From NCBI RefSeq assembly GCF_016757965.1, contig NZ_JAEKIW010000007.1:1-64000 (forward strand): a stretch of DNA of 64,000 nucleotides, written 5' to 3'. The notes under the pieces were generated by a model that ran no database searches, was not told the DNA's origin, and worked only from the letters and a program-made list of their open reading frames with translations. This document shows positions 10,510-16,819 of this stretch, piece after piece. How positions within the stretch are numbered: the first letter of the stretch is position 1; each line of letters starts with the position of its first letter. The stretch is from Archaeoglobus neptunius. Lineage in GTDB: Archaea > Halobacteriota > Archaeoglobi > Archaeoglobales > Archaeoglobaceae. Position numbers and translations under genes: made by a program.

Positions 10510-11757
10510 GTGAAGCTGTCACACATGGTTATAATTCTGCTGATTCTTGCAGGTATCCCTCTAACACGGGCGTGGAGCATGGGATTTGACATAACGGGCA
10601 CGCCTGAAGGTGGGTATCTGATTGCCGGGGCTACTGGATTGAATTACGGATACAGCCATGCGTGGCTAATAAAGGTTGATCGGAATGGAAACGAGGTATG
10701 GGATAAAACCTACGGGGGAAATTGCAGGTCACAAGCCTGGAGTGTGGCAAGAGTTGAGGGTGGATATGTATTTGGGGGAATTACAGGCTGTCGTGATGAC
10801 GACGCATGGATTGTAAAGGTAGACGAGAATGGAAATATGGTCTGGAGCAGGGTTTTTGGCTACGGTGGTGGAGGGGACAGTGCGACAGCGGTTGCAAGGT
10901 CGGGAAAAGGTATGCTCGCTGCTGTAACTATAGCTCCCTGCAGGAATGGATGCACGAATGAGGATGTCTGGATAGTGAAGTTTGGGGCGAATGGGACTGA
11001 AATATGGAGAAAGGAAATCGACAACAGGAAGTACGACAGCATAAAAAGGATAATCAGAACCACCGATGGCGGGTACATCGGGGTGGGCGCTACTGGTGAC
11101 TATGAAAATGGGAGCTACACCAATCTCGACCTCTGGGTTTTGAAGCTGGATGAAAATGGAAGCGTAGAGTGGAGTGACGTTTTCGACTACGGTCTTCTTG
11201 ACGTAGCATGGGATGTTGTCGAACAGGATGACGGGTTCGTAATCGTAGGGGAGGTGTGGACATGTGCTTTGACAGGATCTACCAGCACATCAGCAAAATG
11301 CGTTTATCCCCTCGTTTATCCCATATTGCTGAAGCTGGATAAAGACGGACATCCTGTTGGGGAGAAGAAAATTGAGTGCGGCGGTATATGTGCGGGATGG
11401 GGAACAGTTGATGATGTTGTGGCGGGTGTGGCTGTGAAAAATTCCAGCGAGCTACTCTGGATATGCAACCGTACAGACTGCAAAAATATTGAAGGCAATT
11501 TCACATTTCTGCCCCTCATCTTCGGGCCGGTCAGAGTGGAGAAGGCGGAGGATGGTTTTGTTGTACTGGCCAGTGAAAACAACTCTGTCTGGCTGGGAAA
11601 GTTCAACAGCAATCTCGATCTCATGTGGGAAAAGACATTCAGGCATAAACTGGAAGAGGAGCATTTTGGTAAACCATCCGCACACAGCTACCTTTTTCAG
11701 GCCGGAGCGGCAATAGCTCTTGCAGCAATCCTTGTGGCGGTTTTGAGAAAAATTTAG
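10510..11757 (+). CDS. Exported repeat protein, probable beta-propeller with C-terminal anchor
   Basis: The 415-residue protein starts at a GTG (10510), has a signal peptide (LSHMVIILLILAGIPLTRAW) and about seven imperfect repeats of 45-60 residues. Each repeat includes a stretch like GGYLIAGAT followed by LIKVDRNGNEVWDKTYGG (other copies: IVKVDENGNMVWSRVFGYG, VLKLDENGSVEWSDVF). Such W-x-K-x-D-x-N-G-x-x-x-W blades are seen in archaeal and bacterial beta-propeller-like extracellular proteins. A hydrophobic helix near the C-terminus (residues about 395-412) anchors it. Cys pairs suggest disulfides. Function unknown. Confidence 0.75.
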   Translation: MKLSHMVIILLILAGIPLTRAWSMGFDITGTPEGGYLIAGATGLNYGYSHAWLIKVDRNGNEVWDKTYGGNCRSQAWSVARVEGGYVFGGITGCRDDDAWIVKVDENGNMVWSRVFGYGGGGDSATAVARSGKGMLAAVTIAPCRNGCTNEDVWIVKFGANGTEIWRKEIDNRKYDSIKRIIRTTDGGYIGVGATGDYENGSYTNLDLWVLKLDENGSVEWSDVFDYGLLDVAWDVVEQDDGFVIVGEVWTCALTGSTSTSAKCVYPLVYPILLKLDKDGHPVGEKKIECGGICAGWGTVDDVVAGVAVKNSSELLWICNRTDCKNIEGNFTFLPLIFGPVRVEKAEDGFVVLASENNSVWLGKFNSNLDLMWEKTFRHKLEEEHFGKPSAHSYLFQAGAAIALAAILVAVLRKI

Positions 11758-14195
11758 GAATTGGATATGAAGTTCCCGTAACCCCACCACGGATAATCCT
11801 GTGGATGCTCCATACCCGGCAGATTCTTTAGCAACTTGATAATCACTGAAAGCATCTGATCGAGTAGCTTCATCACCTCGAAGTCAGCCCTTTCCTTTTC
11901 CGAATACGGCATCAGAACTCTGAATTTCAGCAGATAGTTCAAACCGGTTCTTCCATCGGGTGGACCGGTGATGCTTGCCATATTCGTCACCAGGATACCG
12001 GTTACATTTTCAAGCTCCGATCTAAGCGTGCTGTTCATTACAATTTGTTTTATAATTCTGGCGCTGTCGTAGAACTGTGTGTAAGTTGCGATTATGAAGG
12101 TGTTGATCGTGTTGTTTCCGCTGACCTCCATAACCCACAGAGTCTGTTTCAGGTAGGGGAGAAAGTCGATAATGAATCTGTTGAGTGCAATATTGGCAAA
12201 AACTATGTTGTCTTCATTGGTCGGATTGGGAAGATGATCGGGCTCGGGATATCTTTTATCCCAGTTCAGAAGCTCCTCTGCCATAACCTTAATGTTGTAG
12301 GCGAGATTTCTCAGAAGGTAGTAGATCCATGTTGGGTAGAAGTTCTGCCATGCCGGGATGTCGTGATCGCCGGGATAACTGCCGGCAGGCATGCTCGTCA
12401 CGAGAGCTACAAATGGGTGGATGCCGTATCTGTGTCCGAGCAAAATACCGACTACATGTTCGTTATCAGCGGCAAGACCTATGAATCCCGGCAACCCGAG
12501 ACCGCTGTGGGGGTCGGGATCAAATATGTTTACAATTCCGATAATTCTGTAACCATTTCGAAAAGCCTCCTCAGAGCTGACGGTATTGATTGTGTAGTCC
12601 AGAGATATTATATGAACCGTGCAGGGGAGCGCATCAGGCCCCTCGATCCTGCTGTAGGGCTGCCTCATTATGTCGGGGATCGTGCTGTACTGTGTGCACA
12701 TCTCGATGGTTCTGCTGATTACCACTCCAAGAACGTGGTCTGGAGCGTTGAACTGAATAAAGGGGCCGAAACGGTAGCCGCTCAGATGTTCTCCGCAATT
12801 ATGTGCCCCCTCGTTGTCTAAATAGCAGCATTCACCATCGGCCTGACAGATGTATTTCCCGCAGTAAGCACCTTCATCAGGGCCTATGCAGGCTGGCTGA
12901 GTTTCGGCATCCACGTCATTTGTGTTTCCGTTTATCCCTTCGGTCTGGGAGTTATCATCATTGTTCGGGTCAACAATGCCCATCTTCCAGATGAGTAAAT
13001 CCCAGTGGTGAAAATGCTGGGCTGCCGGTATGCTGTAACCGTTTACATTTACAGGATCAACATCCTCCGGCTCGGCTATCCACCTCACTTTGACCCAGTC
13101 TCCCCCTCCAACGTCCCAGTATCTGCCAATGAGTGTGATATTGTAGCTTCCGGGTGTTACCGCAACATCTCTGGCAAATGTTTCCTCACCACACCCGGCA
13201 CCGACCTCGTAGGCCTTTCCGTTCACCATAACATCAGATATGGCCGCTTTGAAAGTCACACGCCATTTGTCACTCACCCCCCCGCTAATTGGCTCTCCAC
13301 TGAGCGTGGCGTAGCCACTACTGTTGGTTAATGCTATACCAAATGCACCGTATCCGTTATCCCACTCTCCCCTGATGTAGGCCGGGTAGTTCCCGACGGG
13401 ATTGCCACCGGATGTTACTTGAATCCTGACACCGATCGTGTCGTCGTCAAATATGCCATCCCAGTCCCTGGATATTCCGGTGACAGAGCCTGGAATAACG
13501 CTAACACAGGCTGTCTGTACGCTCGCATCGGGAACTGTGGCTCTGGCCTCTATGTAGTCTACGTCGATGTTTGCGGTATCCGAACCCCAGAGACGAGCGT
13601 ATGCCTGACTTTGGAACAGGACGTATACTTTTCCGGAGCTGGAGATGTAACTGGACGGAGAATCGGTTGTGAAGTTTATCCACGTCCATCCGAGATTGAC
13701 ATCTGAGTAGTTGGCATACATTTCCCAGGAACAGGTCTCAAAGTTCCAGATGTACGCCTGAATTCCATCATCCTCATCTCTCAGGTATGCGTTGATTTCC
13801 AGATGTGTGGATGATGTGGCAACGCTGAACATGAATTCCATAACAGCGTACTCGGCATCATCTCCGAGTAATGTATCTGATGCGGTTGTGGAACTTCTGG
13901 AATAAACACCGTCCAGTGCTTTGACTGCATCTATGTCAGACTGACTAAATTGCTGCCCAATTCCGGCGCTGTAGTCACTCCACGGACTTTCCCACGCACT
14001 GTCATCATTGGCCCACAAATTTCCGCTGTTCTTCCATCCTCTGGGGAAGGGTGATGACGGTGAGACCTCTATGACCCCACCGATTTTGTTGAAGTTTTCT
14101 AAATACGTTTTAGCCTCTGCAGCGTTGAAAGCAAAGCAGATAATGGTTGTTAACATGATAATTCTGACAGCTTTCACGAAATCAGGATAAAACAA
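11754..14195 (-). CDS. Large exported multidomain protein carrying a C-terminal copy of the paralogous helical domain
   Basis: The 813-residue protein has a signal peptide (VRIIMLTTIICFAFNAAEA, ending near residue 28) and a beta-rich domain (30-220). An Ig-like region follows, opening SVIPGSVTGISRDWDGIFDD and including a loop rich in Cys (CGKYICQADGECCYLDN). The C-terminal helical region is about residues 640-790. There, N721-S-T, N738, G744 and G751 match the spacing in all four proteins encoded at 14501-16285. Many sequons indicate an external, glycosylated protein. No known catalytic motif is visible. The gene converges on the repeat-protein gene with a four-base overlap and is divergent from the small gene at 14303. 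Confidence 0.75.
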   Translation of the reverse strand: MFYPDFVKAVRIIMLTTIICFAFNAAEAKTYLENFNKIGGVIEVSPSSPFPRGWKNSGNLWANDDSAWESPWSDYSAGIGQQFSQSDIDAVKALDGVYSRSSTTASDTLLGDDAEYAVMEFMFSVATSSTHLEINAYLRDEDDGIQAYIWNFETCSWEMYANYSDVNLGWTWINFTTDSPSSYISSSGKVYVLFQSQAYARLWGSDTANIDVDYIEARATVPDASVQTACVSVIPGSVTGISRDWDGIFDDDTIGVRIQVTSGGNPVGNYPAYIRGEWDNGYGAFGIALTNSSGYATLSGEPISGGVSDKWRVTFKAAISDVMVNGKAYEVGAGCGEETFARDVAVTPGSYNITLIGRYWDVGGGDWVKVRWIAEPEDVDPVNVNGYSIPAAQHFHHWDLLIWKMGIVDPNNDDNSQTEGINGNTNDVDAETQPACIGPDEGAYCGKYICQADGECCYLDNEGAHNCGEHLSGYRFGPFIQFNAPDHVLGVVISRTIEMCTQYSTIPDIMRQPYSRIEGPDALPCTVHIISLDYTINTVSSEEAFRNGYRIIGIVNIFDPDPHSGLGLPGFIGLAADNEHVVGILLGHRYGIHPFVALVTSMPAGSYPGDHDIPAWQNFYPTWIYYLLRNLAYNIKVMAEELLNWDKRYPEPDHLPNPTNEDNIVFANIALNRFIIDFLPYLKQTLWVMEVSGNNTINTFIIATYTQFYDSARIIKQIVMNSTLRSELENVTGILVTNMASITGPPDGRTGLNYLLKFRVLMPYSEKERADFEVMKLLDQMLSVIIKLLKNLPGMEHPQDYPWWGYGNFISNS

Positions 14196-14273
14196 ATAAA
14201 TTATTAAAATTTTCGTATTGTTATTGTTAATGATTATGGTAATAAAGGTTATAAAATAAATTTTTCAGAAAAG

Positions 14274-14281
14274 TTTATATA
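14274..14281 (+). promoter_or_regulatory. TATA box of the 62-residue hydrophobic gene
   Basis: TTTATATA is centred about 26 bases before the ATG at 14303 and preceded by AGAAAAG, a purine-rich BRE-like stretch. The spacing places the transcription start at the ATG itself, so the mRNA is probably leaderless. This also argues against the in-frame ATG at 14288. Confidence 0.65.
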
Positions 14282-14302
14282 TTCCTCTTGTCAGCATGTA
14301 TT

Positions 14303-14491
14303 ATGAACACCCTTGTAGATGTGGTGGCAAACCTGCTGCAGGCCCTGGGTGTGAGGGTTAGCTATGAGACGTTTATAACGCTGTTAAACGTGATTAACTG
14401 CATCTACAGCCTGCTGCCATCCTGGCTGCAACCAGTGGTGAGTGCAGTCCTCAGGCCACTTGTGGACGCTCTGATTTCCGCCATTGCCTGA
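14303..14491 (+). CDS. Leaderless small hydrophobic protein, unknown
   Basis: The 62-residue product is almost wholly hydrophobic: MNTLVDVVANLLQALGVRVS, then TFITLLNVINCIYSLLPSWL and PVVSAVLRPLVDALISAIA, read as two or three amphipathic or membrane helices split by a Pro-rich turn. It has very few charges and no sequons. It lies between the divergent 813-residue gene and the convergent end of the four-gene paralog operon, so it is placed inside that island and may work with it. The small size and amphipathic helices are reminiscent of membrane-active peptides or holin-like proteins, but that is speculation. Confidence 0.6.
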   Translation: MNTLVDVVANLLQALGVRVSYETFITLLNVINCIYSLLPSWLQPVVSAVLRPLVDALISAIA

Positions 14492-14500
14492 TTTTTTTGT

Positions 14501-14962
14501 TCAGCGATATACTGCAGAGAGCTTCGCACCAATCTTTGACAGTAAAATTATTACCCACTTGAGGGACTCAAGCCCCCAGTAAGTGATGCTCGAGCCGTAG
14601 GATTCGCAGTAACCGCCCGGCTGGATGCACTCGTACTCTTTTCTGAGGATGTAGGCCAAACCTCTGCTGGCATTCTCATCTCCTGCGATGTATGTGATAT
14701 TGCCAGCAACCTTCTGCCACATTCCCACGCTGTACTTGATCATGGTGGTGTTGTTCATGACCACATCCGTTGCATCTCTGATGCAATCTGAAAAATACTT
14801 CAAAAAGCCGAAAAGGTAGTAGATGTCCTCGGTTGCCCTTGTTACGAGGGTGCTGTTCTCGGCGATGATTTTCGCTATCTCTCCATTCAGCATGAACATT
14901 TTCTGAATGAACTGTAGGAGGTAGGATGCCGCCATCCAGACATCGACAGGCAACTTTTTCAC
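14501..14962 (-). CDS. Paralogous helical-domain protein, copy 1 of 4
   Basis: This 153-residue protein is predicted mostly helical with hydrophobic segments at 8-27, 47-60 and 125-148. The shared core is N71-T-T, N88-I-T, G94, then G101-LAYIL, spaced 17, 6 and 7 residues apart exactly as in the other copies. It has several sequons (NST, NNTT, NIT, NAS) and two extra cysteines ([13 protein letters not shown]) not seen in its paralogs. It is last in the operon; its start overlaps the preceding stop (ATGA). I recognise no family and no catalytic residues. Confidence 0.7.
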
Positions 14963-15429
14963 CCCGGAAAGTAAGTTGGAAATACCCTGAGGGCGTCGGA
15001 AACCAGTATCACCAGATGTTTGGCTGCATAGTACAGATTTGCCACAAATTCTGGATTGTTTGACACCCTCTCTGTCATCACCCTCAGCAGGAAGGATGTT
15101 CCGTTCGTTCCGGATGCCTCGCCAATTATCAACGTGGCGTTTTTTGCAGCCAGAGCTACCACTTCCGAAAATTTGTTTTCAAGGGTGGAGTTGTGGTTGA
15201 TCTGCCATACAAACCCGTATTTGTCGAAAAGAAGCTTTCGAAACCATGTGACAGAAACGTCTGCGTGGTACCATATTTCCCAGAAGCTCTGGTAAGCCCC
15301 TCTTGATGAATTCACGACCGTCTCGTTGTTTCCCGTGTACTTCAGGTAGATAAAGAATTTTCCAAGCGATCTGAGCACAGCGGCAAGCGCCTGAAGTATC
15401 ACATTGCCGAGTTCCGCTACCGTCGGCAT
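14959..15429 (-). CDS. Paralogous helical-domain protein, copy 2 of 4
   Basis: The product is 156 residues from the ATG at 15429, which has GAGGTGG five bases upstream; a GTG at 15441 overlapping the previous stop is an alternative. Core residues are N80-S-T, N97-A-T, G103, G110. The protein is helical with an N-terminal hydrophobic stretch ([20 protein letters not shown]) and a C-terminal one ([16 protein letters not shown]). Relative to its sisters it carries a longer aromatic-rich insert ([15 protein letters not shown]). Function unknown. Confidence 0.7.
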
Positions 15430-15437
15430 TGTCCACC

Positions 15438-15863
15438 TCACAGGAATTCAAAAACCTTCATGAAGTATATCACAGTACTGTTCATTGCCCTCACGAATCT
15501 TACAGCAATTTCCTCTGAAATCTGCTTGTTTTGAGTGAGTTCAATGTATGTGTGCCTGGCGATGTAGCTTATGCCGCTCAAACCGTCAATATCTCCGAAC
15601 AGACCTCTGGAGTTTGTCGAGAGGGAGTGGAGGGTGTCGGCGAATGCGAATAGAAGGGTGGAGTTCGAGGCTGTGAGGTCTGCAATGGCTCCAAAAAACT
15701 TTACAACCCATAAAATAGCGGAGATCTGGGCGTAAACGAAGTCTGTGTGCTCCGGCGTTATATGCTTTGTAACCAGTTCAAGCATGCCGTAAATTAAAGC
15801 AAAGAAATCTGAAATCGGAGTTAGAACTCCGTTCAGAGCGAAATCAGTTGCATTCGCTATCAC
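15438..15863 (-). CDS. Paralogous helical-domain protein, copy 3 of 4
   Basis: The 141-residue protein has the core N67-S-T-L-L, N84, G90, G97-ISYI with the same 17/6/7 spacing as its paralogs. Helical segments lie at 15-32, 43-62, 68-82 and 115-140. Its ATG overlaps neither neighbour by more than four bases, so the four genes form one translationally coupled unit. The hydrophobic N-terminus ([12 protein letters not shown]) could insert in a membrane but is not a clean signal peptide. Confidence 0.7.
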
Positions 15864-16285
15864 CCGATCACCTCATTCACTTTTTCGAGCATCTTTATGG
15901 CAACCTTTACTCCTAATTTCGCCGTTTTCCAGAACTTCATAGCGAAATTCTCATCGATATGTCCGGTCAAATTGCTCATAACAGCAGAAAGGCCATTACG
16001 CCCCATCTCATTGCCAAAGATGGTCTCGGGATTTCTTCCGAGGTAGTTCACCATGTTGCTGAAATTCTTCAGGGCGGAAGCGTTCTGGCCCGCAACATCC
16101 AGAGCCCCTCCATTACCTAAAAAAGGTTTTGCAAGCCAGTATCCTAACCCTGCTGCGTGGAGGGATACGTTCCATATGTCAGCGGTGTCTACCTTCAGCA
16201 TCAGGGTGAGCGTGCTGGACATCAGCTCGAGACCTGCCAGAATGAGCCTGTAGAAGACGTCAGCGAAATCCGCAGCGCTGGCCAT
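15860..16285 (-). CDS. Paralogous helical-domain protein, copy 4 of 4 (first in operon)
   Basis: This 141-residue protein leads the four-gene run. The core is N68-A-S, N85, G91, G98-LSAV. Hydrophobic helices at 11-31 and 41-57 flank a Gly-rich turn (FLGNGGALDVAG). An AT-rich stretch upstream (16286-16369) should hold the operon promoter. As with the other copies, sequons (NVS, NAS, NLT) suggest exposure outside the cell although no clear signal peptide is present. Family not recognised. Confidence 0.7.
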   Translation of the reverse strand: MASAADFADVFYRLILAGLELMSSTLTLMLKVDTADIWNVSLHAAGLGYWLAKPFLGNGGALDVAGQNASALKNFSNMVNYLGRNPETIFGNEMGRNGLSAVMSNLTGHIDENFAMKFWKTAKLGVKVAIKMLEKVNEVIG

Positions 16286-16369: not shown

Positions 16370-16819
16370 TTACTCAAAATTCTTTCGCGCTTCTTTCATG
16401 TTTCTCCAGGCGTTGAAGCTGTCTATAATAAAACTCAGTCCAAGCCTTACGGTGAAGTAGCCTATTGCCAGGAACATCGTGTATGAGAAAGCCTCGGAGT
16501 CTATGAAAAAGGTTGTGAGAAGCATGTATGGGCTCAAAAGCAAAAAGAACAGAGATGTGGTGAACATCATTTTTCTGAAAAACAGAGGCCAGTATTTTTC
16601 ATTTGCCATTCTCTGAAGTCCCTCGTAAGCTTCTCTGTCATTCATTGCAATTGCGAGAATCGAAAGAGCGTGGTATTCGTTGAGTTCAGCCTCAAGTCTT
16701 TCTACATCTTCCAGAAATCCTCTGAAAAACTTTCTGAGAACCAGCGATTCCAGCCGCTCGGCCAGAAGGATGACCACAAAAGTTACGGAAATAAAAAGGT
16801 AAAGAAACGGGCCGTTCAT
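16370..16819 (-). CDS. Small membrane protein with coiled-coil loop
   Basis: The 149-residue protein starts at 16819, giving an ATGA overlap with the TauE-like gene; longer starts run inside that gene. It has an N-terminal membrane helix (FLYLFISVTFVVILLAE), a charged helical section with leucine heptads (35-80), and two further membrane helices (TSLFFLLLSPYMLLTTFF, AIGYFTVRLGLSFII). The pattern loosely recalls DUF106/EMC3-like proteins, but I see no decisive motif. Coupling to the exporter suggests a helper role. Confidence 0.65.
   Translation of the reverse strand: MNGPFLYLFISVTFVVILLAERLESLVLRKFFRGFLEDVERLEAELNEYHALSILAIAMNDREAYEGLQRMANEKYWPLFFRKMMFTTSLFFLLLSPYMLLTTFFIDSEAFSYTMFLAIGYFTVRLGLSFIIDSFNAWRNMKEARKNFE

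Follow-up and report, generated by a model that had tools for sequence, protein, structure and literature searches.

One important question raised by this locus of Archaeoglobus neptunius is whether four small adjacent genes (A, B, C and D) and the C-terminal end of the large exported protein encoded by gene E carry the same domain, and what kind of structure their products would form. The window, i.e. the whole stretch of DNA that was analysed, comprises 64,000 nucleotides (contig NZ_JAEKIW010000007.1). A preliminary description, made from the sequence alone, had noted in these five proteins a core of Asn and Gly residues with identical spacing, and had proposed an unrecognised domain and the subunits of one assembly.

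A search of the six frames of the window with the pattern N.{16}N.{5}G.{6}G gave exactly five matches, all at the residues originally claimed: N68/N85/G91/G98 in A, N67/N84/G90/G97 in B, N80/N97/G103/G110 in C (counted from ATG 15429; N84/N101/G107/G114 from GTG 15441), N71/N88/G94/G101 in D and N721/N738/G744/G751 in E. Pairwise identity among the window copies of the domain is low (~20–25%), as had been noted. Homology was assessed with held-out profiles, in which profiles built from orthologues were searched against 255 window ORFs. The profile built only from A matched C (9e-10), B (9e-8) and D (1e-3), and the one built only from E matched C (2e-5), B (5e-4) and D (5e-4). Leave-one-out profiles regained the omitted slot (A 2e-16, B 1e-16, C 3e-16 and D 9e-12), and these same profiles matched E at 1e-4 to 4e-6. 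Among the 255 ORFs, none of the slot profiles matched an unrelated one. In whole-genome searches, a helical-domain alignment without any E sequence (A3) matched the C-terminal region of E at 3e-6 in genome G007 and 2e-5 in G000, and profile-profile comparison of the domain with the E C-terminus gave E=1.3e-7. Since held-out profiles regain the other copies, chance is excluded as the source of the shared motif, and these profile comparisons show that A, B, C, D and the C-terminus of E contain one homologous domain, as the preliminary description had held.

The AlphaFold2 model of gene A, the single-chain prediction that had been proposed as a check, was confident and all-helical (pLDDT 88.4, pTM 0.67), and a helical fold is predicted for the ~150-residue domain. 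The helix order predicted for residues 661–790 of E, a low-confidence part of that protein, resembles the gene A model. No significant fold match was found in the PDB (Foldseek, best E 3.5) and none in BFVD; there was no significant sequence match in the PDB, no Pfam or NCBIfam family above its curated cut-off and no match in PHROGs. The best library score for the window copies, that of RP-C_C for gene D, was sub-threshold (19.2 bits against a cut-off of 32.6) and was rejected. Nothing relevant to the family was found in the literature, including a search with the presumed A. fulgidus locus numbers. Profile searches of archaeal genomes retrieved homologues, and none of the libraries searched contained the domain. 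The claim is one of an undescribed family; arCOG, eggNOG or the AlphaFold DB may already group such sequences in a cluster that has not been characterised.

The features of the locus are collected in Table 1. Shine-Dalgarno-like GAGGTGAT sites often precede the starts of A–D. On the basis of these sites and of the orthologue starts, the start of C was placed at ATG 15429, downstream of the GTG 15441 at which the listed ORF begins, and that of D is probably TTG 14953. With the revised starts, what had been described as four overlapping genes is a tightly packed group in which A and B do overlap (4 nt), the genes at the remaining two junctions being separated by 5–8 nt. The distance from D to the downstream gene E is 305 nt, and E may therefore lie outside the A–D transcript. 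The D–E gap contains, on the opposite strand, an ORF for a very hydrophobic 67-aa peptide (14288–14491, +), of which no homologue was found in the relatives compared.

Table 1. Positions of the A–E genes and of the two adjoining genes in the window
Feature	Positions	Strand	Product	Remarks
Gene A	15860..16285	-	141 aa; helical domain, no signal peptide	immediately preceded by an in-frame stop
Gene B	15438..15863	-	141 aa; helical domain, no signal peptide	4-nt overlap with the end of A
Gene C	14959..15429	-	156 aa from ATG 15429; helical domain, no signal peptide	orthologues start MPT..
Gene D	14501..14962	-	153 aa (GTG 14962) or 150 aa (TTG 14953); helical domain, no signal peptide	
Gene E	11754..14195	-	813 aa; signal peptide, CBM/Ig-like beta-sandwich N-part, conserved centre, C-terminal helical domain	
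E C-terminal helical domain region	11757..12362	-	residues 612-813	
Beta-propeller-like protein	10510..11757	+	415 aa; has a signal peptide and, at the C-terminus, a TM helix	convergent with E; optional partner
Membrane protein	16373..16819	-	149 aa; TM, coil, TM, TM	conserved beside the cluster, Archaeoglobus only

In a maximum-likelihood tree, A, B, C, D and E each formed one clade in 94–100% of the bootstrap trees, and the leaderless solo copies and the copies with signal peptides also formed separate clades; the deep branching between these groups is unsure because of long branches. A–D and both solo classes span two genera (Archaeoglobus and g10) in this tree, in which all E sequences come from Archaeoglobus, the E of genome G038 having been aligned separately. 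The order A-B-C-D was kept in the other Archaeoglobus genomes sampled wherever a contig shows the cluster, and four of them (G004, G005, G006 and G007) have E next on that contig. In G038 the genes are rearranged but still clustered: A and E face each other, and two propeller genes, D, C and B come next. Among the 55 genomes of the family, full-length E was found only together with A–D, in a subset of the domain-bearing genomes. B, C and D are present in the fragmented assembly of G189, where E and A were not found. A truncated D-like remnant of 67 residues and an E frame with 11 stops occur on different contigs of G052; this parallel decay of unlinked D and E indicates that the set behaves as a unit and argues for one function. 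The comparison shows that A–D occupy orthologous slots and are co-conserved with E, as expected of distinct subunits of one assembly; they are probably four ancient, non-interchangeable paralogues. Some local variation was also seen. Genome G006 (L022, L114, L023) has two A–D sets and two E genes, and the TauE gene beside one of the sets seems to be split into two frames. In G004 (L006/L077 1191-1401), the segment from DUF169 to A lacks TauE and the beginning of the 149-aa membrane protein.

Distribution was sampled within one phylum, and it proved wider than the preliminary description foresaw, with solo exported paralogues and, in other orders, giant proteins that contain tandem repeats. Among the 55 family genomes, matches were confined to Archaeoglobus (5–12 per better assembled genome), G038 (9–10) and G189 (5), both outside that genus, G052 and G054 (one). 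Genomes with the A–D set also hold solo paralogues at scattered sites, alone or in tandem. One paralogue with a signal peptide is identical in G054 (L064, an 8-kb contig) and G007 (L065), which belong to two genera; contamination or recent transfer is the probable cause. Rare copies were found in three other orders, each represented by a single genome (G177, G305 and G244). G177 contains small helical-domain proteins with signal peptides, and tandem copies in proteins of 928 and 1232 residues with 3keto-disac_hyd/lectin-like domains; two large distant proteins with the helical domain carry signal peptides and lectin-like folds. Leaderless small proteins and a truncated 462-residue frame with three copies were found in G305, and two copies end a 5700-residue frame in G244. 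The occurrence of the domain in solo exported, tandem and giant proteins suggests a reusable extracellular building block, and not only an operon product.

The absence of signal peptides on A–D was not foreseen. E and the solo paralogues have, by inspection, typical Sec signal peptides, and in the solo paralogues the presumed cleavage site is immediately followed by the helical domain. No cleavable Sec signal peptide was found in A–D when the upstream codons and the orthologues were inspected, and an in-frame stop lies 0–14 codons upstream of the start in nearly all orthologues, so close that these proteins cannot carry one. Nor do A–D look like transmembrane proteins: no clear TM segment is present in the window copies, none of whose segments reaches the hydropathy of the TauE and propeller TM controls. 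The 149-aa neighbour, whose 238-aa entry in the ORF list has a falsely long start, was considered as an Oxa1-like insertase or export route and rejected; it is like the Oxa1/DUF106 insertases in topology only, with no match to PF01956 and an hhalign probability of 0.2% with the DUF106 protein of the same genome. Earlier work has already put forward candidate leaderless glycoproteins in archaea, among them M. mazei MM0002 (PMC4350412).

A–D contain 17 N-x-[S/T] sequons against 4.5 expected, a count reached in 0 of 5000 shuffles; the reversed motif occurs 4 times against 4.45 expected, and shifted spacings are also near expectation. The whole leaderless set has 172 sequons against 50.8 expected, the controls (reversed, i+1, i+3, i+4) lying at 0.92–1.15 of expectation; the orthologues in these counts are not independent, and the window A–D alone suffice. 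Twenty-three other sampled window proteins contain 27 sequons against 26.5 expected, and the C-terminal domain of E is weakly enriched (18 against 13.1). The N-x-[S/T] column of the shared motif is a sequon in every sequence of A (7/7), C (9/9), D (9/9) and E (6/6) and in most of B (7/9), and the second motif Asn belongs to a sequon in nearly every C, D and solo copy. Helix capping or composition was rejected as the cause, since the reversed and shifted motifs show no excess in the leaderless set. In the signal-peptide paralogues a mild excess is seen for the shifted controls as well, and the glycosylation argument is for that reason based on the leaderless set, in which the sequon excess expected of an exported N-glycoprotein was found with flat controls. 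This pattern suggests that A–D are N-glycosylated. Since archaeal N-glycosylation by AglB acts at the outer membrane face, the sequon signature points to A–D being exported. Three AglB oligosaccharyltransferases, one of them structurally solved, are present in A. fulgidus (PMC8342417). Of the surface or membrane structure originally suggested, the surface is consistent with the sequon enrichment and with the signal peptides on E and the paralogues, whereas a membrane-embedded structure finds no support, the window copies of A–D having no clear TM segments.

The AlphaFold model of full-length E is poor beyond residue 345, and its second half is unreliable because homologues are too few. Residues ~110–345 are mostly confident beta-sandwiches, CBM-, Ig- and adhesin-like, for which Foldseek retrieved GH85, CBM4 and Epf adhesin folds at 7–14% identity, a likeness confined to this beta-sandwich N-terminal part. 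No catalytic domain was found in E. Residues 577–603, in the middle of the protein, form a strongly conserved stretch (D..H..G...GHR.G.HPF) with no family match, possibly a metal or catalytic site. Residues ~75–217 recur C-terminally in signal-peptide proteins of ~600 residues in five Archaeoglobus genomes (e.g. L028:9540-11333), and the main part of these proteins resembles, by eye, a C45-type N-terminal hydrolase. The propeller gene convergent with E is optional: G005 lacks it, and in G002 it seems to be broken.

The reading we prefer, with a probability of roughly 0.6, is that A–D are leaderless, N-glycosylated subunits that form, with E, a hetero-oligomeric surface assembly, joined in many species by a membrane-anchored propeller. 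A–D would be made from one tightly packed operon, cross the membrane without a cleavable signal peptide and be N-glycosylated outside the cell. The shared domain would join them to one another and to the C-terminal copy on E, a protein that would display carbohydrate-binding/Ig-like beta-sandwich modules; the TM-anchored beta-propeller may join as an optional partner. The product would be a cell-surface structure serving as an attachment or envelope component. The fuller version, in which four helical glycosylated subunits travel by a route without cleavable signal peptides and dock on the E copy, and giant surface proteins of other orders are likewise made from this domain, is put forward tentatively.

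The solo signal-peptide paralogues, which lie dispersed in these genomes, alone or in tandem, would fit A–D as independent secreted glycoproteins of an expanded family, with their own ligands or a part in envelope decoration and no single complex; four one-clade slots in a constant order and the fact that G052 has lost D and E in parallel make this rather unlikely. The lack of signal peptides on A–D and a neighbourhood common to Archaeoglobus could instead indicate an intracellular helical complex tied to the TauE, DUF169 and LysR-type neighbours, e.g. in sulfur-compound handling. Such a complex is improbable, because the enrichment is specific to N-x-[S/T], the same domain occurs on exported proteins, and the set persists in G038 without these neighbours. 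A viral origin of the A–E genes, as remnants or derivatives of a virus or virus-like particle with A–D as glycosylated coat proteins, comes to mind because leaderless, sequon-rich helical proteins are reminiscent of capsid proteins in certain archaeal viruses; the vertical conservation of the set, always in one chromosomal context, with no match in PHROGs, phage records or viral contigs and no BFVD fold match, renders it scarcely credible.

A surface assembly, the preferred reading, is an already-known kind of job, and the surprising part is its leaderless, sequon-rich subunits. The locus combines a domain without a relative in the libraries searched with a four-subunit-plus-anchor set in a genus that includes cultured hyperthermophiles. 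The missing signal peptides and the geometry-specific sequon signature make signal-peptide-free archaeal export directly testable, since the same genomes hold normal signal-peptide paralogues as built-in controls. Among known systems, archaeal type IV pilins and archaellins are likewise short clustered subunits of a (here putative) surface assembly, but A–D have neither a class III signal peptide nor a continuous hydrophobic N-terminal segment, their N-terminal helix being interrupted by charges, and no assembly ATPase or platform gene was recognised in the A–E clusters when the neighbourhoods were read by eye. SBBP/LipL53-like beta-propellers (NF047494) are matched only by the convergent neighbour, weakly and below the family cut-off (35 bits against 400). 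S-layer and other archaeal envelope glycoproteins differ from the present set in that its domain is small and helical, with no sequence or fold match, and A–D are leaderless; they resemble it in the export of E and the paralogues, in dense sequons and in modular extracellular domains.
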